Shown here piece by piece: positions 3,921-46,678 of a DNA stretch of 64,000 nucleotides. A model generated the notes under the pieces. It had not been told where the DNA came from. It worked only from the letters and a program-made list of their open reading frames with translations, and did no database searches. Positions within the stretch are counted from its first letter, which is position 1, and every line of letters begins with the position of its first letter. Source of the DNA: Thioalkalivibrio sp. ALE31 (GTDB lineage Bacteria > Pseudomonadota > Gammaproteobacteria > Ectothiorhodospirales > Ectothiorhodospiraceae); contig NZ_KB905022.1 in assembly GCF_000377405.1 (NCBI RefSeq), forward strand, positions 310,001-374,000. The letters are read 5' to 3'. Position numbers and translations under genes: made by a program.

Positions 3921-4925
3921 CTACAGCGTGACGTCCGCCTCGAGGATCAGAAAGACCAGCAGGGCGAGGGTGATGGCCCATAGCAGGAGGTAGCCCGCCA
4001 TGCTTTGCGCGGCGGCTGCCTGCTGCGCCTGGCCGCGCGGGCGTACGCCCTGGTAGAGGAAGACGAGCTTGGCCGAGAGGTTTACGCAGACTACGTTCAC
4101 CGCGAGCAGCAGGGCCGCCATGTACGCGGCGGAGAATTCGCCGGAGCCGAGCATGATCCCGACGGTCGCGGCCGGCGGGAGCAGGGCCACGGCGACCATC
4201 ACGCCGACCAGCACCGTGGGCAGGCCGGTGGTCAGCGACAACACGGCCGCGGCACCGGAGGCCAGGGCCAGCGCGACCGAATCCAGTCCGACCTCGGTGC
4301 GCATCTGCAGCTCGCGGGCACCCACATCCACCGACATGACCGTGGCGAGCAGCATCCCGATCAGGATGGCACCCCCCAGGCCCACCGCGTTCGTGCGCAG
4401 GGAGCGGCCGATCAACCGGGTGTCCGCCATGGAGGTGCCCAGCGCCAGCGCCAGGTTGGGCCCCAGCAGGGGCGCAATGACCATGGCGCCGATGACCACG
4501 GCCACGTTGTTCTCCAGCAGGCCGATCGCGGCCACGATGGTGGACAGCACGGTCAGCAGCAGGAACTGGCCGGTGAGATCCGCCCCGCCGGCGACGTTGG
4601 TGTAGAGCTCCTCGCGTGACACGGCGCGGGCCTTCTTGCCGGCCGCCTCCTTGTCGGCCTCTTTCGGCTCCTGAAAGGGGTCCGGCAGTACGGCCTCGAC
4701 CGGCAGCACCAGGATACGCGCGGTCTCGGACGCGCCGAGTACACGGTAGAGGTCGTCCATCAGGCGTTGGCGGTACTCGGTGCTGACCAGCATGTGCACC
4801 GCCATGCGGTCGCGGTTCTCGTCCACGCCGTGCCACAGCACGTCGATCGCGAGCCCCTCGGCGATGCCCAGCACGGTGTCCAGGTGCCCGGCGGGTCCCA
4901 CGACCTCGATGATCTTGCTGCTCAT
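3921..4925 (-). CDS. DUF389 (TIGR00341-type) integral membrane protein
   Basis: The 334-residue protein has a soluble N-terminal domain of about 110 residues that begins SSKIIEVVGPAG. About six to seven transmembrane helices follow, with the family's conserved core: NVAVVIGAMVIAPLLGPN near residue 140 and VALLPPAATVG near residue 245. DUF389 proteins are widespread membrane proteins of unestablished transport role. The start has GGAGG seven bases upstream. The gene is divergent from the HD-GYP gene at 5069 and looks monocistronic. Confidence 0.85.
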   Translation of the reverse strand: MSSKIIEVVGPAGHLDTVLGIAEGLAIDVLWHGVDENRDRMAVHMLVSTEYRQRLMDDLYRVLGASETARILVLPVEAVLPDPFQEPKEADKEAAGKKARAVSREELYTNVAGGADLTGQFLLLTVLSTIVAAIGLLENNVAVVIGAMVIAPLLGPNLALALGTSMADTRLIGRSLRTNAVGLGGAILIGMLLATVMSVDVGARELQMRTEVGLDSVALALASGAAAVLSLTTGLPTVLVGVMVAVALLPPAATVGIMLGSGEFSAAYMAALLLAVNVVCVNLSAKLVFLYQGVRPRGQAQQAAAAQSMAGYLLLWAITLALLVFLILEADVTL

Positions 4926-5068
4926 GAACGTCCTCCCCGTGGAATTCCGGGATGGTAGCAGGGCCTCCCGTTAGGTGCCGTTAGCCGCGATTTGTGGCCA
5001 TCCCGTGGCCGCAGCATACTCCGCGGCCACGGGGCACCCCGCCCTTTCTTGACGATCCCGGGACCCGA

Positions 5069-6331
5069 ATGCTGAAGAAGATCAAGGTGGAGCACGTCGT
5101 TTGCGGGATGTTCATCCGCGAGTTGTGCGGGTCGTGGATGGAGCATCCCTTCTGGCGTACGCGCTTCCTGCTGGATGACCCGAAGGATCTGGCGAGCCTG
5201 CGGGACAGCAGTATCCGCGAGGTGTGGATCGACACCTCCAGGGGGCGCGACACGGAGGCCGTGGAGGCCGTTGTGACGCCGGAGGAGCGCGACGCCGCGG
5301 TGCCGGCGCCGTTGCAGTTCATCCCGGATACGGGGCGCGACCGGGAGCCCGCCTCGACCCGGGAGGAGCTGGAGCGGGCGGCCACCATCTGCCGGAAGTC
5401 GCGCCAGGCCATGACGTCGATCTTCGGCGAGGCGCGGATGGGCCGCGCGGTGGATACCGAACTGGCGCGCAAGGTGGTCGAGGAGATCACCGATTCGGTC
5501 ACCCGCAACTCCCGCGCGCTGGTCAGCCTGGCGCGATTGAAGAACGCGGACGACTACACCTACATGCACTCGGTGGCGGTTTGTGCATTGATGGTTGCGC
5601 TGGGGCGTGAACTGGGGCTGGAGGACGAGGCCCTGCTGGCGGCCGGCGAGGCGGGATTGATGCACGACATCGGCAAGGCCGCGATGCCGCTGGAGGTGCT
5701 GAACAAGCCGGGCAAGCTGACCGCGGAGGAGTTCGCCGTGATGAAACGCCATCCGGCGGAGGGGCACCGAATCCTGCAGGCGTCCGCGGACGCGCTTGAT
5801 CCGGTGACCCTGGACGTCTGCCTGCATCACCACGAGAAGATGGACGGCTCGGGATATCCCGAGGGGCTGACCGGCGAGCAGATCACCCTGCACGCGAAGA
5901 TGGGCGCGGTCTGCGATGTCTACGACGCGATCACCTCGAACCGGCCGTACAAGGCGGGCTGGGATCCGGGCGAATCCATTCGCAAGATGGCCGAGTGGGC
6001 GGACGGCCACTTCGATCCCCGGGTGTTCCAGGCCTTCGTGAAGAGCCTGGGGATCTACCCCGTGGGCTCGCTCGTACGCCTGGAATCCGGCCGCATCGGG
6101 GTGGTCGTCGACCAGTCGTCTGGCTCCCTGCTCAAGCCGGTCGTGAAGATCTTCTACTCCACCAGTTCGGGCTGCCGGATCCCCCCGAAGATCGTGGATC
6201 TGTCCGCGCCGCACCAGCAGGAGGCCATTGCTGCGCGCGAGGATCCGGCCGCATGGCCGTTCCCCGATCTCGATGAACTCTGGTCGGGCCTGCCACAGGA
6301 GCGGCAGACCCGCGACCGCCGCGAGGCGTAG
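5069..6331 (+). CDS. HD-GYP domain c-di-GMP phosphodiesterase (intact catalytic motifs)
   Basis: The product has 420 residues from ATG 5069 (MLKKIKVEHVVCGMFI). An earlier in-frame ATG at 4994 would add an unnatural Pro/Arg-rich leader. The N-terminal 130 residues match the DUF3391-type domain common before HD-GYP. The HD-GYP domain follows at about 155-350 with HDIGK, HHEKMDGSGYP and DVYDAITSNRPY all present, so metal binding and hydrolysis of c-di-GMP to GMP are plausible. A C-terminal extension of about 80 residues has GSLVRLESGRIGVVVD, often found in this subgroup. Compare the second HD-GYP gene at 40572, where the HD pair is broken. Confidence 0.92.
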   Translation: MLKKIKVEHVVCGMFIRELCGSWMEHPFWRTRFLLDDPKDLASLRDSSIREVWIDTSRGRDTEAVEAVVTPEERDAAVPAPLQFIPDTGRDREPASTREELERAATICRKSRQAMTSIFGEARMGRAVDTELARKVVEEITDSVTRNSRALVSLARLKNADDYTYMHSVAVCALMVALGRELGLEDEALLAAGEAGLMHDIGKAAMPLEVLNKPGKLTAEEFAVMKRHPAEGHRILQASADALDPVTLDVCLHHHEKMDGSGYPEGLTGEQITLHAKMGAVCDVYDAITSNRPYKAGWDPGESIRKMAEWADGHFDPRVFQAFVKSLGIYPVGSLVRLESGRIGVVVDQSSGSLLKPVVKIFYSTSSGCRIPPKIVDLSAPHQQEAIAAREDPAAWPFPDLDELWSGLPQERQTRDRREA

Positions 6332-34175: not shown

Positions 34176-34235
34176 TCAGTCGCAGGCTCCACGGCGGCTG
34201 CGGTCGTCATTACGAACAGGATGGGAGGCGGGCGG

Positions 34236-35267
34236 ATGACACGACGGATCGTGATTTGCGCGGACGGGACCTGGAATCGCCCCGAGGAGGACGTCGAGTC
34301 GGACGTGCCGACCAACGTGCTGCGTCTGGCGCGGGCCATCGCGCCCGCCGATGCCAGTGGTGACCCCCAGCAGGTCTTCTACGACTGGGGTGTCGGGGCG
34401 TACTACGCGAAGGTAACGGGCGGCGTGACCGGGCGGGGCATCCACAAGAACATCCAGGATGCCTATCGCTACATCGTCCAGAACTACAACCCCGGCAGCG
34501 AGATCTTTCTGTTCGGCTTCAGTCGCGGTGCCTACACCGTGCGCAGCCTGTGCGGGCTGATCAACAACTGCGGGATCCTGAGGCGCCCGGACGCGCGCCT
34601 GATCGAACAGGCCTTCCGTCACTACAAGAAGACCGCGGCGAGCCATGCGCCGGAGGGGTCGGCCTCGCGCGAGTTCCGGGCGGCGTATGCCCACCCCTCG
34701 CGGGAGATCCGCTTTGTCGGGGTCTGGGATACGGTGGGCGCCCTGGGCATCCCGTTCTCCCTGCTGGGGCTGTTCGACCGCACTGACGAGTTCTACGACA
34801 CCAAGCTGGGCCCCAACGTGCGGGTCGCGCGGCATGCGATGGCGATCGACGAGACCCGCGCCGACTTCGAGCCGACCCTGTGGGAGCCGCGCCCGGGGCT
34901 GGACCTCAAGCAGGTCTGGTTCAGCGGGGTGCATGCCGATGTGGGGGGCGGCTATGCCCCGGATGCCGACGGGCGTCTGGCGTCGGAGGCGCCGCTCGCA
35001 TGGATGATCGACCAGGCGCGTGCGGCGGGCCTGCAGGTGGAGCCGCACCTGGTCGATGCCCTGCGGCCCGATCCGCTGGCCCCGCTGCATCGTTCACGGC
35101 GGCACATCTATCGCCTGCGCCGCCGCCATCGGCGTCCATTGCACCAGCCGGGGTATCCGACGGAACTGCATCCCAGCGTCCTCGATCGGTACCAGCGGGA
35201 TCCCGACTATCGGCCCGAGAATCTGCGGAACCACCTGGTGGAATGGGGCTGGCCCGATGCCGACTGA
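34236..35267 (+). CDS. DUF2235 alpha/beta-hydrolase (phospholipase-like)
   Basis: GGGAGG lies seven bases before ATG 34236. The 343-residue protein has the DUF2235 hallmarks: ICADGTWN at the start, TNVLRLARAI, then the nucleophile elbow FLFGFSRGAYTVRSL near residue 95 and WDTVGALGIP near residue 165. The later FSGVHADVGGGYA carries the Asp/His candidates. The same domain occurs in Tle1-type phospholipase effectors, but no secretion genes are nearby, so a housekeeping esterase is more likely. It follows hsp20 by 60 bases. Confidence 0.85.
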   Translation: MTRRIVICADGTWNRPEEDVESDVPTNVLRLARAIAPADASGDPQQVFYDWGVGAYYAKVTGGVTGRGIHKNIQDAYRYIVQNYNPGSEIFLFGFSRGAYTVRSLCGLINNCGILRRPDARLIEQAFRHYKKTAASHAPEGSASREFRAAYAHPSREIRFVGVWDTVGALGIPFSLLGLFDRTDEFYDTKLGPNVRVARHAMAIDETRADFEPTLWEPRPGLDLKQVWFSGVHADVGGGYAPDADGRLASEAPLAWMIDQARAAGLQVEPHLVDALRPDPLAPLHRSRRHIYRLRRRHRRPLHQPGYPTELHPSVLDRYQRDPDYRPENLRNHLVEWGWPDAD

Positions 35268-35729: not shown

Positions 35730-35875
35730 GCGGGGCAACCCTCCGCGGAATATCGGCGCAGGGCCGGGATGGGGCCGGCCCGCTGTAAATTAGGGAGAGA
35801 TACGGATGGATCCGAGCATGCCGGGCGCGAGCAGGCGCCCTGGACAGGGGTGGGGTGCGGTCGGGGTTCGGGCGG

Positions 35876-38212
35876 ATGGCTGAGCACATGGCGGTTCCCG
35901 AGATTGAACGCTTCCGCATTCTGCGGACGCTGGGTGCCAGTACCCGCGACGGGCTCTACGTGGCGCACGATCCGGTACTGGATCGGCAGGTCGCGATTCG
36001 CACGCTGACCCAGGCGGGCGCCGACGACCTCACCCGTCAGGCCCTGCTCGCGGACGCGCGTCGCCTGAGCCGCTTCCGGCATCCGAATATTGCGCCGATC
36101 TTCGAGGCGGGGAGCTACCCCCAGGGCGTCTACCTGGTGTTCGAGTACGTCGAGGGCGAGACCCTGGACCGGATCCTGGCCGGGGGCGCGCTGCCGATTG
36201 ATCGTGGTCTGGCCCTGATGCGCGAGCTGCTGGACGCCGCGGCCGCGGCCCATGAGCAGGGCATCCTGCACGGGACCCTGCAGCCGGCCAACGTGACCGT
36301 GAACCCCGAGGGGCATGCACGCATCACCGGGCTGGGCATGGCGCTGCCCGACGCCGCGGCCCGTGGCGAGAGCCACCTGCCGGACACCCCCTACTACCTG
36401 GCCCCGGAACAGCTGGCAGGCGAAGCGGCCAGCGAACGCTCTGACGTCTTCTCGCTGGGGGCCCTGTTCTTCGAGATGCTGACGGGTGAACGCGCCTTTG
36501 GAGGCGAGGATCCGGAGGCGATCCGGCAGTCGATGCTGGCGGCGGGGCTGGAGCCACCATCCGGTCGTACCGGTAATGGCGACGAGCGCTTCGATGCCCT
36601 GATCCTGCGGGCGACCCGCCCCGATCCGGCGGAACGCTTTGCCTCGGCCCGAGAGTTTCGCGAGGCACTGGTGGCGGCCCTGGAGGGGGAAGGCTCGCAG
36701 GACGCCGGGTCGCAGGATTTCATCCTGCGCAAGATCCGGCGCAAGCCGGATTTTCCCGGGATCTCCAGCCACATCCGCGAGATTACCCAGTGTTCCGATG
36801 ACACCATGAAGCGTTCGGTGGCGGAGCTGTCGAACGCGGTGCTGAAGGATTACGCCACCACCCAGAAGCTGCTGCGACTGGCCAACTCGCCCTTTTACAG
36901 CAACTTCGGCGGCAATATCCGGACGGTGTCGCGCGCGATCGTGCTGCTTGGTTTCGAGCAGGTGCGCACGGCCGCGCTCGGGCTGGTGCTGTTCGAAAAC
37001 CTCAAGGGCGGCCGGCATTCCGGTCGCCTGATGGAGGCCCTGGTCGGCACGCTGTTCAGCGCTATGCTGGCGCGCGATCTGGCGGAGCAGGTTGGCGGGG
37101 TGGAGAGCGAGCAGGCCTTCGTCTGCGCGCTGTTCCACGATATCGGGCGCATGCTGGTGCTGTACTACCTGCCCGAGGAAGCGGACGAGATCCGCATCCG
37201 TGTGGGTCAGGGCACGGGGGAGGACAGTGCCGCCCGCCAGGTGCTGGGGATCTCCTACGAGGCGCTGGCGCGCAGCGTACTGGAGGACTGGAATTTCCCG
37301 CGCGAGCTGGTGGCATCGGTAGAGCGCGCTCCGTCCGGCATCCTGCCGGCGGCCCGGGATGCCGATCAGCGCCTGCATCGCATCGTGACCCTGGCCTCCG
37401 AGATGGGCCAGTGCATCACCCGCGCCGAGCGCGACCAGCAGGGGGCTTTGCTGACCGATCTGCGCCGGCGCTATGAACATGCCCTGGGCGTGGATGCGCG
37501 CGGCATGCAGCGGGCGATCCGCTCGGGACGCGAGCATATGGATCACTTCCTGGCGGTGGTCAAGCTGCCGCCGGAAGGTCGGGAACCGCTGAACCGCCTG
37601 AAGGCGAACCTGGGGGTACGCATTGATGACGGCGAAGCGGAGGCGCTGGAACCCGAGCCGGGAGCCGGGGATGCGCTCCCGCGGGCCGGGCAGGAGCCCG
37701 CCGTTCAGGCCGCGGCGCTGATGGAGGCCCTGACCGACATGCTGGACAGCATGGTCGGCGAGTTCGACCTGAACGCGCTGGTCCAGACGACGCTCGAGAC
37801 GCTGTATCAGGCGCTGGGCCTGCGCCGGGTCATGCTGATGCTGGCGGACCGCGAGCACCGGGTCCTGGTGGCCCATACCGCGTTTGGTCAGGACGCGGAG
37901 ACCCTGTCCGGTCGCTTGCGCCTGAGCGTAGCGGGCAAGGGCGACATCCTGTCCCTCGCCCTGGAGCAGCAGAAGGATCTGGTCATCAGCGACAGCCACG
38001 AGGCATCGATCAGCCGCTATATCCCCGACGAGTTCCGGCAGGCCCTGGATGCGCGCAGCTTCCTGTTGCTGCCCCTGGCGGTGCGGGATCGGTGTGTGGG
38101 ATTGCTCTACCTGGAATTGCCGGAAGGCGTTTCGCTGGACCCGAGCGTGTTGCGGGCGCTGAAGGCGGTGCGCAACCAGCTGGCCCTGGCGATCCGCCAG
38201 GCGCGCGACTGA
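35876..38212 (+). CDS. Pseudokinase-HDOD-GAF fusion signalling protein
   Basis: The 778-residue protein has a Ser/Thr kinase-like domain (about 10-275), an HDOD domain (about 285-480) and a C-terminal GAF domain (about 620-778). The kinase fold is recognisable (VYLVFEYVEGETLDRIL, YYLAPEQLAGE, SDVFSLGALFFEMLTGE). The catalytic positions are lost: the VAIK lysine is Arg (VAIRTL), HRDLKPxN reads HGTLQPAN and DFG reads GLG. It should therefore bind partners rather than phosphorylate. HDOD shows KLLRLANSPFYS and FVCALFHDIGRM. GAF domains usually bind small ligands. It lies amid c-di-GMP genes and is convergent with the DUF1631 gene. Confidence 0.88.
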   Translation: MAEHMAVPEIERFRILRTLGASTRDGLYVAHDPVLDRQVAIRTLTQAGADDLTRQALLADARRLSRFRHPNIAPIFEAGSYPQGVYLVFEYVEGETLDRILAGGALPIDRGLALMRELLDAAAAAHEQGILHGTLQPANVTVNPEGHARITGLGMALPDAAARGESHLPDTPYYLAPEQLAGEAASERSDVFSLGALFFEMLTGERAFGGEDPEAIRQSMLAAGLEPPSGRTGNGDERFDALILRATRPDPAERFASAREFREALVAALEGEGSQDAGSQDFILRKIRRKPDFPGISSHIREITQCSDDTMKRSVAELSNAVLKDYATTQKLLRLANSPFYSNFGGNIRTVSRAIVLLGFEQVRTAALGLVLFENLKGGRHSGRLMEALVGTLFSAMLARDLAEQVGGVESEQAFVCALFHDIGRMLVLYYLPEEADEIRIRVGQGTGEDSAARQVLGISYEALARSVLEDWNFPRELVASVERAPSGILPAARDADQRLHRIVTLASEMGQCITRAERDQQGALLTDLRRRYEHALGVDARGMQRAIRSGREHMDHFLAVVKLPPEGREPLNRLKANLGVRIDDGEAEALEPEPGAGDALPRAGQEPAVQAAALMEALTDMLDSMVGEFDLNALVQTTLETLYQALGLRRVMLMLADREHRVLVAHTAFGQDAETLSGRLRLSVAGKGDILSLALEQQKDLVISDSHEASISRYIPDEFRQALDARSFLLLPLAVRDRCVGLLYLELPEGVSLDPSVLRALKAVRNQLALAIRQARD

Positions 38213-38233: not shown

Positions 38234-40363
38234 TCAGCCCCCCGGGGCCTCGATAATGGCGTCCAGCGGGTTGTCCTCCGGCAGCGCGCGCATGCGGCCC
38301 TGGCGCAGCTCCTGGGCCACGCCCTGCAGGCTGTGGCGGCGGGCGTGCACGCCGTCGAGGGACAGGAAGAAGAAGCGCCGCGTCGTGTCGCCGCGCCAGA
38401 TCAGGGCCAGGCGCCGCGGGTTTTCGCCGGCGTCGTCGCAGAATTCGAACCAGTCCCCGATGTCGAGCCCGATCGCGGCGAAGACGTGGTCGTCGTCGCG
38501 GTCCTGTTCCAGGGTCGGGTCGTCGTCCTCGTAGCGCACGGATTCGCGTGTCTGCAGCCGTGCCCGCGGGTCGAAGCGCTCGGCGTCCTCCGGGGCCCGC
38601 AGGCGGTAGAGGTGGGCCTTGCCCAGGTGCTGCACCAGGTCGCGGATGCGGTCGTCCCCCAGGCCTGCGGCGCGGGCGTGTTCCTTCGCCTCGGCCACCA
38701 GCGGATTCACCTCGGCGGCGGTGGCCATGTTGCAGATGTGGCGCACGACCTGGCGCAGCACGCGATGCAGGGCCTCCCCGGCCTCGCCGGCGTCGTGCTC
38801 CACGGCCAGCACGGTCTCCCAGGACTGGAAGATCTCCTCGGCGGTGGTCTCCGGGAGATCGGCCCCGGTCTCCAGCGCGGCCAGCGCCAGATTGCGCCGG
38901 GCCTGCTCGGCCCATTCCTCGGCGTTGGGCAGGTCGATCTGGGTGGTCTGGCGGGCATGCCAGAGGGCGTCCTCGTTCTCCACGCTCTCGAGGAACTGGT
39001 TCATCAGCACCTCGGCGCTGTCGCGGTCGAGGCGGTCGGCCTCGTTGCGCAAGTATTCGATCGAATGCCGGATGCAGCCCAGGTAGCGCTCGACGTCCTC
39101 GCCGTCGGGCTCCGACTCCGGATTGATGCGTATGGCGACGTTGATCAGGCTCCCGATCCACAGGCGCAAGGGGTGCGAGCGGTCGCGGAAAAAGCCGAGA
39201 TCCCGGATGACGGCGGTGGCCAGCGGGTACTGCATCTCGCCGATCTCGGCGCGCACGGCCGGGTTGAACCCCACCTCGCGGAAGATGTGGTCGAACAGCC
39301 CCTGCAGCAGGTCGTGGATGAACGGCATCAGCGAGGCGCGCGGGTCCGGCTGATCGGAGGGCATGACGAAGGCCGTCATCGGGGCCGCGTTGCCGGAGCC
39401 CGCCGCTTGCCCGCCGCCATGGCCTTCGACCGGGCGAAACACCGGGGACTGCACCATGTTCGAGGCCCAGGCGGCCCACTGGGCCGGGTCGGCCTCGGTG
39501 TCCGGCATGCGCGCGGGTTCGTCGGCCTCGGCCTTGCGCGTGGAGGGCCGCCACCCGGAGGTCGTCGTGGCGGGGTCGGCGTCCGGTTCCGCGGAGGCGT
39601 CGGTATCGCGTGCGCCGGCGAGGCGTTTCCATGAGGCGTTGCGGCGAAGGGTTTCGCTGGACTCGGGGGCGGCCGGTGTCTCGGTGATCAGCCCGCAGTG
39701 TTCGATCGCCTCGACCACGAAGGCCAGGGTGGGGGCCGCGGTCTTCTGCATGCAGTCCAGGTAGGAGCGCATCAGGTCCAGGGTCATCTCGGTCTTGCCG
39801 AAGTACAGCTCGCCAATCTCGATCAGGCGCTCGTACCAGTGCAGCGGTGACCAGGGGGCCCAGTTGGGATGCTCGAAGCGGTTCTTTTCGCGCGCGGCCT
39901 GGGTGAACACGTAGTGCGAGTAGCGGTTGTTCTCGCGCATCGAGCCTTCCAGCTTGTGCCGCAGCGACCGCCGCGTGGACTGGTAGTCGTCGAGGATGCT
40001 GAGACCGTCGTCCTGATCCGCGAACGCGACCCCCGAGAACTCGTACTGCGGGGGGTAGTCGTGGCTGCGGAAGTCCTCCATCAGGGCGTCCTGGAAGTCC
40101 CGGGTCACGCGCTTCTCGAACATGCGGAAGTCATTCGCCCACAGGAGGGGATTGCCCGTCACATTGCCCCAGGTGCGTCCGGCCTCCCATTCGTCGCGGG
40201 CCGTCGCCAGGCAGCGCTCCAGGTGTTCGATCACCCGGGGCACGACCATCTCGGCGAGCTGCTCTCGCTGCACGATCGACAGCCCGGCCATCCCGGTCCA
40301 TTTGCCGGAGGCCTTGAGCGGCTGGCGGGAAGAACCAAGGAGGGTGTCCTGGTCGGCTGGCAT
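38234..40363 (-). CDS. DUF1631 family protein
   Basis: The product has 709 residues. Its N-terminal helical region carries the DUF1631 pattern: RVIEHLERCLATARDEWE, NPLLWANDFRMFEKRV, a Pro/Thr-rich linker near 230-320, FIHDLLQGLFDHIF and DRSHPLRLWIGSLINVAI near 395. The last 100 residues (GDWFEF ... RRLALIWRGDTTRRFFFLSLDG) look like a PilZ-type beta barrel, which in other proteins binds c-di-GMP. The RxxxR motif is not clearly present, so binding is uncertain. It is divergent from the HD-GYP gene at 40572. Confidence 0.85.
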   Translation of the reverse strand: MPADQDTLLGSSRQPLKASGKWTGMAGLSIVQREQLAEMVVPRVIEHLERCLATARDEWEAGRTWGNVTGNPLLWANDFRMFEKRVTRDFQDALMEDFRSHDYPPQYEFSGVAFADQDDGLSILDDYQSTRRSLRHKLEGSMRENNRYSHYVFTQAAREKNRFEHPNWAPWSPLHWYERLIEIGELYFGKTEMTLDLMRSYLDCMQKTAAPTLAFVVEAIEHCGLITETPAAPESSETLRRNASWKRLAGARDTDASAEPDADPATTTSGWRPSTRKAEADEPARMPDTEADPAQWAAWASNMVQSPVFRPVEGHGGGQAAGSGNAAPMTAFVMPSDQPDPRASLMPFIHDLLQGLFDHIFREVGFNPAVRAEIGEMQYPLATAVIRDLGFFRDRSHPLRLWIGSLINVAIRINPESEPDGEDVERYLGCIRHSIEYLRNEADRLDRDSAEVLMNQFLESVENEDALWHARQTTQIDLPNAEEWAEQARRNLALAALETGADLPETTAEEIFQSWETVLAVEHDAGEAGEALHRVLRQVVRHICNMATAAEVNPLVAEAKEHARAAGLGDDRIRDLVQHLGKAHLYRLRAPEDAERFDPRARLQTRESVRYEDDDPTLEQDRDDDHVFAAIGLDIGDWFEFCDDAGENPRRLALIWRGDTTRRFFFLSLDGVHARRHSLQGVAQELRQGRMRALPEDNPLDAIIEAPGG

Positions 40364-41820: not shown

Positions 41821-41943
41821 AAAGACTGAAAAAATGTCCGGTTTGGTTACAAGCGGCGGCCGGCGTCCCAGTGCCAGGTGAGTGGTTCCTGGTCCGCTAC
41901 AGCGTTCGTGGCACACGGCCGGACCGAACGGATTCAGTCTTTT
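41821..41943. repeat. 11-bp inverted repeat upstream of the GGDEF/EAL gene
   Basis: AAAAGACTGAA at 41821-41831 pairs perfectly with TTCAGTCTTTT at 41933-41943, bracketing most of the 163-base gap between the degenerate HD-GYP gene and the next gene. The transcript could fold into a long stem or the arms could be operator half-sites. The right arm ends about 40 bases before the start codon at 41983. Confidence 0.45.
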
Positions 41944-41982
41944 CCTGGAGGCGCCGCGCGGGCGCAATGCCGGAGCCCAGCG

Positions 41983-43239
41983 ATGTTGTCGAATCTGTCG
42001 GACTATCCAGCCTTTCTCGAACGCCTGCAGGCGGGTTGCGGTGCGCGTTCTCCGGCCCTGGCCGTGGTCGATCTGGAGGGCCTGGGCGATATTGATGCCG
42101 CCCTGGGTTATGACGTGACGGACCGGTTGCTGCGTCAGGCCGGCGAGGCCCTGGCGACCGCCTTGCCGGGCGGGTTCGTCGGGATGACGGGACGCCACCA
42201 GCTCGCCTGCATGCTGCCCCATGTGGACGGCAGCGGATTTGCCGAGCTGGCGGGCCACAAGATGCTGCGGGTGCTGGGCGAGCCTTTTCCCTGCGGCGAG
42301 CGCGAGGTGCTCCTGTGGCCGCGGGTCGGACTGGCCCTGTCCCGGGGCGGGCGCGCCGTAGCCCCGCCGACCCTGCTGGCCCAGGCCTGTGCGGCGATGC
42401 GCAAGGCTCGGCGTGAACGGGTCCGCCTGCGCCTGCATGCCCCCGACGCAGCCGAGACGATGCTGGAGGGTGTCGACCTGTGGTCGCAGCTGGGCGATGC
42501 GATCGAGGAGGGAGCCCTGCACCTCGAGTATCAGCCGCAGATCGCCCTGGCTTCGGGGCGGGTGGAATCGGCCGAGGCCCTGCTGCGCTGGGATCACCCG
42601 GAATATGGCGCGATCCGGCCGGACACCATGGTGCGCGCGGCGGAGGGGACCGATCTGATGCCGCGCCTGACCCACTGGGTCTTCAACACCGCGTTGCGCC
42701 AGTGCGCCGAATACCGCCAGGCCGGGCTGGGCGTCGGGGTGTCGGTGAACTTTTCCGCGGATGATCTGCAGGAGCCGGAGGTCGTGGACCTGGTGGCCCA
42801 GTCGCTGGACCTCTGGGGCGTGCCACCCGAGCAGGTCACGATCGAACTGACCGAGACGGCGGTGATGGAGAGCCACGATGCCACCGCGCGCGACGCCCTG
42901 CACAGCATGAAGGGGCTCGGGCTGCGCCTCTCCATGGACGACTTCGGCATCGGCTATTCATCCATGGAGCGGCTGCTGCGCATGCCCCTGGACGAACTCA
43001 AGATCGACATGACCTTTGTCCACGAACTCAGCGCCAGTCCCCCGCATCAGCGCATCGTGGAGTCCATGGTCGGCCTTGGACACAAACTGGGCCTGACGGT
43101 CGTGGCCGAAGGGGTCGAGGACGAGGACACGCTGACCCGTCTGCGGGCCCTGGACTGTGATCTGGTGCAGGGGTTCTACCTCGGCCGGCCGGCCCGCCTG
43201 GGATACTTCATGGAGCAGATGTTGCGGACGCGCGATTGA
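41983..43239 (+). CDS. Degenerate-GGDEF / intact EAL phosphodiesterase
   Basis: ATG 41983 has GGAG about eight bases upstream. The 418-residue protein has a vestigial GGDEF domain (about 1-150) where the signature reads GRHQL, so no cyclase activity is expected. A complete EAL domain (about 170-410) follows: AEALLRW, SVNFSADDL, ELTET, MDDFGIGYSS, ELKIDM and AEGVED. It should hydrolyse c-di-GMP, perhaps tuned by GTP binding to the relic. It lies 163 bases after the degenerate HD-GYP gene on the same strand. Confidence 0.9.
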   Translation: MLSNLSDYPAFLERLQAGCGARSPALAVVDLEGLGDIDAALGYDVTDRLLRQAGEALATALPGGFVGMTGRHQLACMLPHVDGSGFAELAGHKMLRVLGEPFPCGEREVLLWPRVGLALSRGGRAVAPPTLLAQACAAMRKARRERVRLRLHAPDAAETMLEGVDLWSQLGDAIEEGALHLEYQPQIALASGRVESAEALLRWDHPEYGAIRPDTMVRAAEGTDLMPRLTHWVFNTALRQCAEYRQAGLGVGVSVNFSADDLQEPEVVDLVAQSLDLWGVPPEQVTIELTETAVMESHDATARDALHSMKGLGLRLSMDDFGIGYSSMERLLRMPLDELKIDMTFVHELSASPPHQRIVESMVGLGHKLGLTVVAEGVEDEDTLTRLRALDCDLVQGFYLGRPARLGYFMEQMLRTRD

Positions 43240-43265: not shown

Positions 43266-43844
43266 CTATCCTGTCGATCGTGAACGCAGGTACAGGTGGA
43301 TCACGATCCAGTCGTACAGGGCGTGGGTGACGATGACCACCAGCAGGTTGCCGGTGAGGTGGTACAGGACCCCGAGGTACAGCCCGATGATCGTGGCGAA
43401 CACGAAATACAGGCGGCTGATCGAATGGGCCAGTCCAAAGACCACCGCGGCGGCGACGATGGCCCACTCGGCGGACCAGCGTTCGGTCAGCCACCCCTGC
43501 AGCACACCCCGCACCAGCAGTTCCTCGCCCACGCCCGCGAGGATGGAGATCAGCAGCACGGCACCGGGCAGGGCGTGCCGAAAGAGCTGGTGCACAAAAT
43601 CCCGCACCTGATCGGCCAGGGCACGATAGGGCTCCCAGCCACTGATGGCGAGCGCGCCCAGCAGGATCAGCATGGGCAGGACGGCGAGGGCGCCCAGGGC
43701 GGCGGCGTCCAGGCTCCACTCGATCCGCTCGGCCAGCGGGATCCCGGCAACGCGGGCCAGGATCAGGGCGAGCGGGATCAGCGCGGCCTGAAAGACCAGG
43801 CCGGCCAGCAATGGGTGCCGCGCGATGGCCTTACGCAGGCTCAT
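43266..43844 (-). CDS. CPBP family intramembrane metalloprotease
   Basis: The 192-residue protein has about five membrane helices and the CPBP motifs: GVGEELLVRGVLQGWL (EExxxR) near residue 105, FGLAHS near residue 137 and THALYDW near residue 173, supplying the Glu and His metal ligands. This is an Abi/CAAX-protease relative that may process membrane peptides. It is convergent with the EAL gene (26 bases). Upstream lies the BCCT gene on the same strand, separated by a terminator. Confidence 0.9.
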   Translation of the reverse strand: MSLRKAIARHPLLAGLVFQAALIPLALILARVAGIPLAERIEWSLDAAALGALAVLPMLILLGALAISGWEPYRALADQVRDFVHQLFRHALPGAVLLISILAGVGEELLVRGVLQGWLTERWSAEWAIVAAAVVFGLAHSISRLYFVFATIIGLYLGVLYHLTGNLLVVIVTHALYDWIVIHLYLRSRSTG

Positions 43845-43906
43845 GGCAGGGTGGACGGATTCATTCGCGAGAGGATGCCCGATCCCGGGGGCGGTTGTCC
43901 CGCACG

Positions 43907-43941
43907 AAAAAAACCCGCGCCGCCGGACGGGCGGGCGCGGG
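43907..43941 (-). terminator. Rho-independent terminator of the BCCT gene
   Basis: Read on the minus strand, CCCGCGCC pairs with GGCGCGGG around a 12-base loop and is followed by seven T. It sits 36 bases past the stop of the BCCT transporter gene and ends its transcript before the CPBP gene. This is the clearest intrinsic terminator in the window. Confidence 0.8.
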
Positions 43942-43976
43942 GTGGAGTGAAGGCCCTGGATGGCCCGTGGCGGTCG

Positions 43977-45596
43977 TCAGGTCTTGGCTTCCTCGATGCG
44001 GATCAGGGCCAGTTCGTGGAACAGCCCCTTCATCAGGCTGATGCACATCAGCAGCAGCACGATGACGAATGGCAGGCCGGTACTGACCGCCCCGGCCTGC
44101 AGGGCGTTGAGGGCCGCGGCCCCGCCAACCGCCAGCAGGACACCGGCGACCACGCCCTCGGTGGTGGCCCAGAACAGGCGCTGGGACTGCGGGGCATCGG
44201 TCTTGCCGCCCGAGGTGATGGAATCGATCACCAGCGAACCGGAATCCGACGAGGTGATGAAGAACACCAGCACCAGGGCGATGGCCAGGAACGAGGTGAT
44301 CGCCGTGAACGGCAGGTGTTCCAGCATCTGGAACAGCGCCAGTGACGAGTCGGAGATGCCGTCGGCCAGGGCGCCGATCCCCTCGCGTGCCTGGTCCAGG
44401 CCGGAGCCGCCGAAGGCGCTCATCCAGATCACCGTGACCAGGGTCGGCACCAGCAAGACGGCGGTGACGAACTGGCGCACGGTGCGCCCGCGGGAGACGC
44501 GCGCGATGAACATGCCGACGAACGGCGACCAGGAGATCCACCAGGCCCAGAAGAAGATCGTCCAGGCGTGGTAGAAGGTCTCGTCCTCGCGCCCGACCGG
44601 GTTGCTGAGCGGCAGGATGTACTGCACGTAGCCGCCGACCGTAGTGCCGACGCTGGACAGGAACGCCAGAACCCCTCCGGCCACCATCACGAACAGCAGC
44701 AGCAGCGCGGCGAACAGCAGGTTGATGTTGCTCAGGACCTTCACGCCGCCATGGATGCCGCGCATGATCGACAGCAGGGCGATGATGGTCACGCCGATGA
44801 TGATGGCGACCTGCGTATTCAGGCCCGAGTCGATGCCGAACAGGAATTCCATTCCCGAGGCGGCCTGCTGTGCCCCCAAGCCCAGCGAGGTGGCCAGGCC
44901 GAACATGGTGGCCAGTACGGCCAGGGTATCGATCACGTGACCGATCGGCCCCCAGACGCGCTCGCCGAGGAGGGGATAGAAGGCCGAACGGATGGTCAGC
45001 GGAAGGCCCTTGTTGTAGGCGAAGAACGCGAGCGCCAGGCCGACCACCGCGTAGATCGCCCAGGGATGCAGGCCCCAGTGATACATGGTTGCGCCCAGCG
45101 CCGCCTGGCGGGATTCCTCGGTCCCGCCTTCGATGCCCAGGGGTGTGCCGAACCATTCGGTGAAGTAACCAACAGGTTCGGCCACGCTCCAGAACATCAG
45201 GCCGATACCCATGCCGGCGGCAAACAGCATGGAGAACCAGGAGATCACGGAGAACTCCGGCTTGGCGTCCTGGCCGCCAATGCGGATGCGCCCGATCGGC
45301 AGCAGGATCAGGGCCAGACAGAACAGAACGAAGATGTTGCCGGCCGACAGGAACAGCCAGTCGAAGGTGCGGCCGATCCACTGGCGCGTGGCGTCGAGGT
45401 GTTCGTTGGCCTGTTCCGGAAAGATCAGGGACAGGATGACGAATACGACGATCAGGAATGCGCTGACCACGAAGACCGGGTTGTGCAGGTCCAGCCCCAG
45501 CGGGTTGATGTTCTGCTCGCCAATCTCGTGGTCGGTGTCGTATTCGGCTTCCAGGGCCTCTTTCTGTTTTTCCAGGTCCTGCGGATTCTCGCTCAC
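43977..45596 (-). CDS. BCCT family betaine/choline/carnitine transporter
   Basis: GTG 45596 is chosen because AAGGAGGAG lies directly upstream. The 539-residue protein has an acidic cytoplasmic N-terminus, 12 membrane helices and the BCCT signatures FAAGMGIGLMFWSVAEPVG near residue 140 and FFWAWWISWSPFVGMFIARVSRGRT near residue 345. The Trp/aromatic residues of these helices form the trimethylammonium box. Import of glycine betaine or a related osmolyte, driven by sodium, is the likely role. The short C-terminus lacks a long osmosensory tail. Promoter and terminator are both visible, so it is a single-gene unit. Confidence 0.93.
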   Translation of the reverse strand: MSENPQDLEKQKEALEAEYDTDHEIGEQNINPLGLDLHNPVFVVSAFLIVVFVILSLIFPEQANEHLDATRQWIGRTFDWLFLSAGNIFVLFCLALILLPIGRIRIGGQDAKPEFSVISWFSMLFAAGMGIGLMFWSVAEPVGYFTEWFGTPLGIEGGTEESRQAALGATMYHWGLHPWAIYAVVGLALAFFAYNKGLPLTIRSAFYPLLGERVWGPIGHVIDTLAVLATMFGLATSLGLGAQQAASGMEFLFGIDSGLNTQVAIIIGVTIIALLSIMRGIHGGVKVLSNINLLFAALLLLFVMVAGGVLAFLSSVGTTVGGYVQYILPLSNPVGREDETFYHAWTIFFWAWWISWSPFVGMFIARVSRGRTVRQFVTAVLLVPTLVTVIWMSAFGGSGLDQAREGIGALADGISDSSLALFQMLEHLPFTAITSFLAIALVLVFFITSSDSGSLVIDSITSGGKTDAPQSQRLFWATTEGVVAGVLLAVGGAAALNALQAGAVSTGLPFVIVLLLMCISLMKGLFHELALIRIEEAKT

Positions 45597-45663
45597 CGTC
45601 TCCTCCTTGGCTTTTTTCTGGCATGTTGCCTTGGCCGAATGTCGGCCCGTCGCAACCCTGTCG

Positions 45664-45692
45664 AGTAAAGACACTGCACCACAAAAATGCAA
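45664..45692 (-). promoter_or_regulatory. Sigma70-type promoter for the BCCT transporter
   Basis: On the minus strand TTGCAT (45692-45687) and TTTACT (45669-45664) are separated by exactly 17 bases, about 70 bases before the GTG start. Four of six bases match consensus in each hexamer. Confidence 0.45.
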
Positions 45693-45742
45693 AGGGCCGG
45701 TCCAGAATGCGTTTTACCGGCGTGAGGGAGGGGCCCGGCGCC

Positions 45743-46678
45743 TCAGCGGCGCGACAGCTCGCAGAGGGCGCGGACATGGGCCGCCGCGCTGCGCCCGAGC
45801 GACGAGAAGTCGTATCCACCCTCCAGCATGGAGACCAGGCGCCCGCCAGCGTGGCGCGCGGCGACATCGACCAGGGCACGCGAAATCCAGGCGAAGTCGT
45901 CTTCCGCCAGGTGCAGGCTGGCCAGGTGGTCGTCCCGGTGGCCGTCGAACCCAGCGGAGACCAGCACCAGCTCCGGCTGAAAGCGATCCAGAGCGGGCAG
46001 CCAGTCGCGTTCGATCGCGGCGCGAAAGTTTGCGCCGTCGGTGCCGGCGGCCAGGGGCGTGTGGATCAGGTGATCGCGTTCGGCCAGCGGTGTGCCCGGG
46101 TAGAACGGGTGCTGGAAGGAAGAGCAGTAGAGCACCCGGGGGTCCTCCCGGAAGATGTCCTCGGTCCCGTTCCCGTGGTGGACGTCGAAGTCCGCGATCG
46201 CCACGCGCGCGAGGCCGTAGCGCGCCAGCGCGTGGGCGGCCGCCACCGCGATGTTGTTGAACAGACAAAAGCCCATGGCCCGCTCGCGTTCGGCGTGATG
46301 GCCGGGCGGGCGGACGGCGCAGAAGACATGGTCGGCCTCCCCCTCCATCACGGCCCGCACGCCCGCGACTCCGGCCCCGGCCGCGTGCAGGGCGGCCGTC
46401 AGCGAGCCTTTGCTCATGACGGTGTCCGCGTCCAGCATCGTCTGCTGCCCGGGAGCCGGGGCGCTGGCCCGTATGCGTGCGACATGCGCCGGGCTGTGGA
46501 CCCGCTCGAGTTGCGCGTCGGTGGCCGGGGGCGCGTCCAGCAGGATCAGGCCTTCCAGCAGGCCCTCGTCGAGCAGGGCATTGCGGATCGCGTGCAGGCG
46601 GCCGGGGCGCTCCGGGTGGGTCGGGCCTGGATCGTGCAGCAGGCAGTCGGGGTGCGAGATATAGGCCGTATGGGTCAT
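45743..46678 (-). CDS. Histone-deacetylase/acetylpolyamine amidohydrolase family protein
   Basis: The start at ATG 46678 gives 311 residues. Class II HDAC-like motifs are intact: HPERPGRL near residue 22, RPPGHHAERERAMGFCLFNN near 125, DFDVHHGNGTEDIF near 162 and SAGFDGHRDD near 240, ending with MLEGGYD. These supply the zinc ligands and the His pair. Bacterial members deacetylate acetylpolyamines or small acetylated molecules, so histone is not implied. It is a single-gene unit upstream of the BCCT gene. Confidence 0.9.
   Translation of the reverse strand: MTHTAYISHPDCLLHDPGPTHPERPGRLHAIRNALLDEGLLEGLILLDAPPATDAQLERVHSPAHVARIRASAPAPGQQTMLDADTVMSKGSLTAALHAAGAGVAGVRAVMEGEADHVFCAVRPPGHHAERERAMGFCLFNNIAVAAAHALARYGLARVAIADFDVHHGNGTEDIFREDPRVLYCSSFQHPFYPGTPLAERDHLIHTPLAAGTDGANFRAAIERDWLPALDRFQPELVLVSAGFDGHRDDHLASLHLAEDDFAWISRALVDVAARHAGGRLVSMLEGGYDFSSLGRSAAAHVRALCELSRR

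Follow-up and report, generated by a model that had tools for sequence, protein, structure and literature searches.

The question raised by this locus is what a protein kinase domain is kept for once all three of its catalytic motifs have been altered. The gene lies in a 64,000-nucleotide stretch, here called the window, of the 2.77-Mb genome of the sulfur-oxidising bacterium Thioalkalivibrio sp. ALE31, and an original prediction made from the letters alone described its product as a pseudokinase fused to HDOD and GAF domains. The fusion was confirmed, as Pfam Pkinase (match 37-262, E 1.2e-27, 97.4 bits against a cut-off of 31.7), HDOD (303-491, E 6.5e-35) and GAF (638-780, E 6.6e-14) follow one another collinearly in one 778-residue protein that matches the kinase-HDOD-GAF family over its full length. 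These match positions are counted in a 785-residue version with an alternative in-frame start, GTG at 35855, which adds 7 residues; motif and residue numbers elsewhere follow the 778-residue protein. The features are, in window coordinates:

34221..35267, plus strand: T6SS_Tle1-like hydrolase gene, upstream (Pfam), syntenic in 13/13 genus loci and given as context only.
35876..38212, plus strand: pseudokinase-HDOD-GAF gene (P0001), ATG at 35876, stop ending at 38212, 778 amino acids.
35906..36691, plus strand: pseudokinase domain, residues 11-272, with a PknA/PknB-like fold (Pfam and structure search).
35990..36001, plus strand: VAIR, residues 39-42, canonically VAIK, with Lys replaced by Arg42 (alignment).
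36269..36292, plus strand: HGTLQPAN, residues 132-139, canonically HRDLKPAN, with the catalytic Asp replaced by Thr134, Lys by Gln136, and Asn139 kept (alignment).
36329..36337, plus strand: GLG, residues 152-154, canonically DFG, with the metal-binding Asp replaced by Gly152 (alignment).
36761..37327, plus strand: HDOD domain, with the lowest dN/dS among the parts compared (Pfam and dN/dS).
37592..37711, plus strand: fast-evolving linker, residues 573-612, pLDDT below 50 at 581-605 (dN/dS and AlphaFold2).
37766..38194, plus strand: GAF domain (Pfam).

The three motifs, VAIR, HGTLQPAN and GLG, were all found to be altered as predicted. None of the VAIK Lys, HRD Asp and DFG Asp of an active Hanks kinase is present here or in any of the 13 genus orthologues (13 genomes, one per species), and the loss of even one of them marks a pseudokinase by sequence. 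Judged from these residues, phosphotransfer by the domain is very unlikely. Comparisons were made in alignment A2, which holds 74 of the 96 proteins of two sets (13 of the Thioalkalivibrio clade and 61 of 83 others) and leaves out proteins without GAF coverage or with split matches as well as all Rubrivivax-type paralogues. Position 42 is Lys in 60 of the 61 other rows and Arg in all 13 of the clade; Asp stands at 134 and at 152 in 61/61 other rows and in 0/13 of the clade. With role names (Gly loop, αC Glu, catalytic-loop Lys and so on) that we assume from general kinase knowledge, further changes in the pseudokinase are Ser for the Gly-loop residue Gly22 (Gly in 61/61 other rows), Asp at position 25 (Gly, Ser or Ala elsewhere), Asp60 for the αC Glu, Thr at position 141 (elsewhere mostly Leu, Met or Ile) and Asp for Gly170. 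Across the 13 proteins the catalytic-loop Lys is gone in every one, the Gly-loop Gly22 in 12 and the αC Glu in 11.

The replacements R42, Q136, T141, T151, G152 and L153 are fixed in all 13, and N139 is kept throughout. Variable positions are D134 (A7 S5 T1), E60 (D6 A3 E2 S2), A40 (A7 M5 S1) and G170 (D8 Q4 H1). Near the catalytic and DFG motifs all 13 proteins agree at 11 of 18 positions, compared with 98 of 244 elsewhere in the kinase domain, so the replaced catalytic site is partly fixed; common ancestry may account for part of this. Among the 46 kinase-domain positions that are at least 90% conserved in the other rows, 29 are kept and 10 are lost in at least 12 of the 13, and the same comparison gave 34 of 43 kept for HDOD. 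The APE motif, named in the prediction as part of a well-kept scaffold, is present in this protein but reads ARE in two of the 13 orthologues (L010, L013), with the Glu retained in all.

The gene is present in 13 of 30 Thioalkalivibrio genomes examined (12 of 23 among those at least 90% complete), with T. versutus AL2, T. thiocyanoxidans ARh2 and several strains as named carriers among the close relatives, and in 14 of 47 genomes of the order, the 14th being T. denitrificans ALJD (L014/L096, 61%). Because the Tle1-like hydrolase gene lies upstream at every genus locus, the pseudokinase gene is inherited in place within the genus. Partial matches occur in 73 plasmid records, of which none spans 80% of the query, and a promoter scan at the gene found no site, with 0.2 expected by chance. 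In the tree the 13 proteins form one clade (100/100) nested among kinase-HDOD(-GAF) proteins, with the T. denitrificans gene, which is intact (AIK, HRDLKPAN, DFG), as its sister. By parsimony, the catalytic residues would have been lost once in the Thioalkalivibrio clade. The protein L008 branches first, the other 12 being grouped at 93/92, below the starred level; it retains the Arg of HRD, Gly22 and the αC Glu, comes from a fragmentary MAG that is 66% complete, and may be an intermediate in the loss of catalysis.

A survey of kinase-HDOD fusions, which the prediction had called for, covered 111 proteins: the 13 of the Thioalkalivibrio clade with none of the three catalytic residues, 15 Rubrivivax-type paralogues, and 83 others that still include one identical pair (L088, L132). 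Genomes were scanned by peptide patterns outside the three motifs (at least 79 loci), so that intact motifs were not selected for. All three residues are kept in 81 of the 83; L124 has Arg in place of the Lys, and a second copy in L040 has Asn in place of the DFG Asp. A class survey of 369 genomes gave 27 kinase-HDOD proteins with loci, namely 24 K/D/D, 1 R/D/D and 2 of the Thioalkalivibrio clade; 5 second matches spanning both domains, without a locus, were left out. Relatives in Beta- and Gammaproteobacteria (T. denitrificans L014/L096, Rhodocyclaceae, Sulfuricella, Thauera, Methylovorus, Thiodiazotropha) share the family and the domain order, at 27-61% identity in A2, but differ by having Lys, the HRD-position Asp and the DFG Asp in those 81. 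The family also includes kinase-less HDOD-GAF proteins (the second genes of L063 and L044, L136, L138, and the second gene of L114, which is cut by the locus end). At L063:10454-12058, in L044 (match 4363-5871) and in L114 these adjoin full-length kinase-HDOD-GAF genes, and in G189 two full-length copies stand in tandem. A recent mutation in this strain only, beside intact homologues, had been named as the case that would overturn the prediction. Intact homologues do exist (T. denitrificans and the 81), but the loss is clade-wide and not a recent event in a single strain; three identical losses in 13 genomes rule out a strain-specific mutation, a sequencing error or chance.

Structure prediction gave a kinase fold with confidence. 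The AlphaFold2 model of the kinase domain alone (38 rows) has a pLDDT of 87.5 and a pTM of 0.87, and its best structural matches are PknA and PknB (PknA 4x3f_C: Z 31.2, rmsd 2.1, 256 residues aligned). The bilobal fold match and the Pkinase match above cut-off place the domain in the Hanks-type (PknB-like) fold; no NCBIfam kinase equivalog scored above its curated cut-off, the best being PknB_PASTA with 178.1 bits against 450. The structure-search lists were filled by kinases, and that STRADα and MviN were not among the 50 matches listed bears neither way. For the full protein (74 rows) the mean pLDDT is 83.4 and the pTM 0.45, and the domain arrangement is therefore not fixed by the model. L35 and E77 align with PknB L33 and D76, residues changed in PknB mutant structures among the matches, and R12 is what we take to be the equivalent of PknB R10. 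These three PknB back-to-back dimer positions are kept in 13/13. Because they are equally common in the intact relatives (R in 55/61, L in 59/61, E or D in 60/61), any kinase fold that is kept would be expected to retain them, and the kept N-lobe face is consistent with a docking mechanism without being proof of it.

The reading that we prefer, at about even odds, is that of a kinase-HDOD-GAF regulator working without phosphotransfer, in which the kept kinase fold would be a docking or dimerising module beside the HDOD output and the GAF input. In one Thioalkalivibrio lineage such a regulator would have lost phosphotransfer and retained the kinase fold. The pseudokinase domain would then dock to protein, most likely via the N-lobe back-to-back face of PknB-type kinases, either as a homodimer or onto the one other Hanks kinase of the genome, which is PknB-like and encoded on contig C5, and the GAF state together with this docking would determine the state of the HDOD output. 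Dimerisation or docking is favoured because the N-lobe face is kept and, in a review (PMC12599244), the MviN pseudokinase domain is described as a back-to-back dimer formed via analogous Leu and Asp residues; PknB is also described with a face-to-face dimer mode (PMC6333020). The host genome has two Pkinase matches (the pseudokinase and one intact), one PP2C_2 match and 11 HDOD matches including the protein studied here. The intact kinase reads AIK, HRDIKPEN and DFG and is found in 13/13 gene carriers and 2/17 non-carriers. As an argument for a partnership this co-occurrence is uninformative and is read as clade structure, because the upstream hydrolase is distributed in almost the same way (13/13; distant matches in 2/17).

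In place of a docking module, the kinase fold could be a slowly decaying, stabilising spacer in a protein that acts as a plain HDOD-GAF regulator. Selection on the domains was estimated as mean pairwise Nei-Gojobori dN/dS, in which pairs are not independent. In group A (7 genomes, 21 pairs) the values are 0.118 for kinase, 0.064 for HDOD, 0.130 for GAF and 0.525 for the linker, and in group B (5 genomes, 10 pairs) 0.159, 0.048, 0.061 and 0.539, respectively. The pseudokinase domain is under purifying selection, and HDOD is the most constrained domain of the protein. The kinase values, which are near that of GAF in group A though GAF is lower in group B, argue against decay, as do the retained predicted fold and a gene that is open, with no internal stop, in 13 genomes. 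Measured against HDOD, however, the kinase domain has diverged more rapidly here than it has in the intact relatives. After near-duplicate loci (L031-L038, L096, L110, L111, L135) had been taken out, the median kinase/HDOD distance ratio at 80-90% HDOD identity was 3.10 (47 pairs) versus 1.28 in intact relatives (15 pairs), and at 90-100% identity 3.54 (30 pairs) versus 2.73 (8 pairs). Part of the kinase domain may therefore be drifting, and the variable residues at D134, E60, A40 and G170, like the occurrence of family members without any kinase domain, also speak for a spacer, which we nevertheless regard as unlikely. The pseudokinase domain is constrained, yet partly relaxed compared with intact relatives. 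Of the selected non-enzymatic binding that had been proposed, the loss of residues on a selected scaffold holds (13/13, the dN/dS values above, a confidently predicted fold), whereas binding as the function is only plausible, the domain being partly relaxed.

Rather improbable is a nucleotide sensor of the STRADα type, in which Mg-free, non-catalytic ATP binding would switch the conformation of the domain. As far as the consulted text goes, STRADα combines the replacement pattern VTVR/HRS/GLR with Mg-free ATP binding (PMC2686265), and this pattern resembles VAIR / HG[TAS] / GLG. A conserved β3 Arg is given as a hint of altered nucleotide binding in the ActPs2 family, with EphB6 and KSR1 as examples, and in some pseudokinases an Arg at β3 goes together with ATP binding (PMC12599244); R42 and N139 are present in 13/13. 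STRADα differs, however, in being a human protein that activates LKB1 with MO25, and the places in the motifs of its ATP phosphate contacts Lys197 and Arg215 (PMC2686265) are taken by Q136 and G154 in the present protein. Gly22 is lost in 12/13, position 141 is Thr in 13/13, and the Ala of VAIK is replaced by Met in 5 of the 13 proteins and by Ser in one; because of these changes and those at the Lys197 and Arg215 counterparts, the nucleotide pocket is unevenly kept. From its residues, the pseudokinase domain probably lacks normal Mg-ATP binding, and nucleotide binding of any kind appears doubtful.

SelO-type AMPylation and CASK-type Mg-free transfer are unorthodox chemistries of the kinase fold. 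That the domain is still an enzyme by such a route is highly improbable: CASK and IRAK2 are cited as active despite absent motifs (PMC2686265, consulted in part) and some replacement residues are fixed, but all 13 proteins have lost the VAIK Lys, the two Asp and the catalytic-loop Lys, 12 have lost the Gly-loop Gly and 11 the αC Glu, and the residue at the catalytic Asp position may be A, S or T.

The coupling to chemotaxis or c-di-GMP control suggested from the HDOD domain was not borne out by the gene neighbourhood. HD-GYP and EAL genes lie downstream in close relatives (e.g. L031-L033, L038), but not within 8 kb in L035-L037. EAL-type matches in the flanks of six other loci (L042, L054, L064, L065, L091, L094) have no constant arrangement either, and a c-di-GMP operon was rejected on this inconstancy among loci. 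None of ten other window genes was found within 8 kb of the gene in T. denitrificans. Among 19 neighbour proteins of intact relatives (L096, L069, L041, L066, L051, L063) no common family pointing to a pathway was found; 6 had no match and one is a hybrid histidine kinase (L066). In the window, a DUF1631 gene (38234-40363, minus strand) adjoins the pseudokinase gene, likewise in L032, L033 and L038; in T. versutus (L031) it was not found, and an HD-GYP gene directly follows the pseudokinase gene. The EAL domain of the protein encoded at 41878-43239 (plus strand) is complete; the protein's GGDEF match is weak (24.4 bits), and its translation contains no GGDEF motif. The Gln/Gly/His-rich open frame at 43296-44345 (plus strand), without a Pfam match, is probably antisense to the longer minus-strand ORF 43861-45879 and not a gene.

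A second family member occurs in at least 21 of 95 loci with a kinase-HDOD protein, a lower bound as many flanks span only 1.5 kb. In 15 loci, from Rubrivivax, Leptothrix and relatives, a degraded kinase-HDOD gene lies directly upstream of an intact one on the same strand:

L069:6121-10364: degraded and intact kinase-HDOD genes in tandem; also in L068, L070, L073, L075, L078, L079, L081, L083-L087, L092 and L093.

Genes of the rho and dnaX types lie near the pair in L069. The tandem loci were fetched via the intact copy, and dead copies elsewhere would escape. In 15/15 degraded copies the Lys is lost and the DFG Asp is replaced, with GL in that place, and the HRD-position Asp is kept. Three scanned copies (L069, L078, L084) gave Pfam Pkinase matches with E 1.1e-11, 3.9e-10 and 2.3e-07, the last just below the cut-off, and no GAF match. 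In the FastTree phylogeny the 15 group together (100), next to the intact copies from their own bacteria and away from the Thioalkalivibrio clade; with this quick method and a long branch (1.49), the exact placement is less sure than the separation. All 16 intact proteins from this region of the tree show a degraded neighbour except L127, for which the flank spans 1.5 kb. The tree and the motifs point to a separate second loss within the same fusion family. The Rubrivivax-type paralogues resemble the pseudokinase in family, in the lost Lys and in GL at the DFG place, but they form a separate clade, keep the HRD-position Asp and each directly precede an intact kinase-HDOD gene; in the window's genome the pseudokinase gene is the only one of the kinase-HDOD type. 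Because each step can be one base change, the recurrence of DFG to GL is weak evidence of a shared function.

Bacterial pseudokinases are described as largely unexplored experimentally, with seven families, in a 2025 review (PMC12599244), and the comparison with four of them (GLW, ActPs2, ActPs3 and DYD) follows its published descriptions. GLW pseudokinases (GLW for HRD, LLLL/W at β3) do not fit HGT and VAIR. Of the characters of ActPs2 (β3 Arg, HRN, mostly DFG deletion, a long activation-loop insert in ~90%), only the β3 Arg is found; HGT and GLG are present and there is no long insert. DYD pseudokinases (DYD motif, β3 Arg, no αC Glu) were rejected since GLG, not DYD, stands here. ActPs3, with all motifs degraded and a hallmark activation-loop deletion, agrees in the degraded motifs but not in the deletion, which is absent relative to intact relatives. 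The likeness to the MviN pseudokinase/ActPs3 thus extends to three degraded motifs and kept back-to-back dimer positions, whereas those proteins are actinobacterial and found in the MviN context, and the present one is proteobacterial and fused to HDOD and GAF (PMC12599244). The text of that review makes no mention of HDOD. In the CC0, CC BY and CC BY-SA literature no paper was found on HDOD with a pseudokinase, an STPK, or a protein kinase and GAF, which is weak evidence of absence, and nothing related was found there for HDOD with a kinase domain.

A bacterial pseudokinase is a known kind, and its clade-wide, HDOD-GAF-fused form a new variant. We tentatively raise the less probable, wider possibility that kinase-HDOD regulators rely on contact between their kinase-shaped domains no less than on phosphorylation, dead forms having arisen at least twice, by loss in place in Thioalkalivibrio and as a paralogue in Rubrivivax-type bacteria: the Rubrivivax-type pair would resemble STRAD-LKB1, the dead copy allosterically controlling the live one, and in Thioalkalivibrio a solitary dead domain would by itself pass the docking signal to HDOD. 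The sampling is good: 13 orthologues with a dead kinase domain, an intact sister gene, one protein that may be an intermediate, and a separate second case in which the neighbouring gene is intact. The case permits a direct test of non-phosphorylation roles of a bacterial kinase domain, and the hosts are environmental bacteria that include several named isolates.
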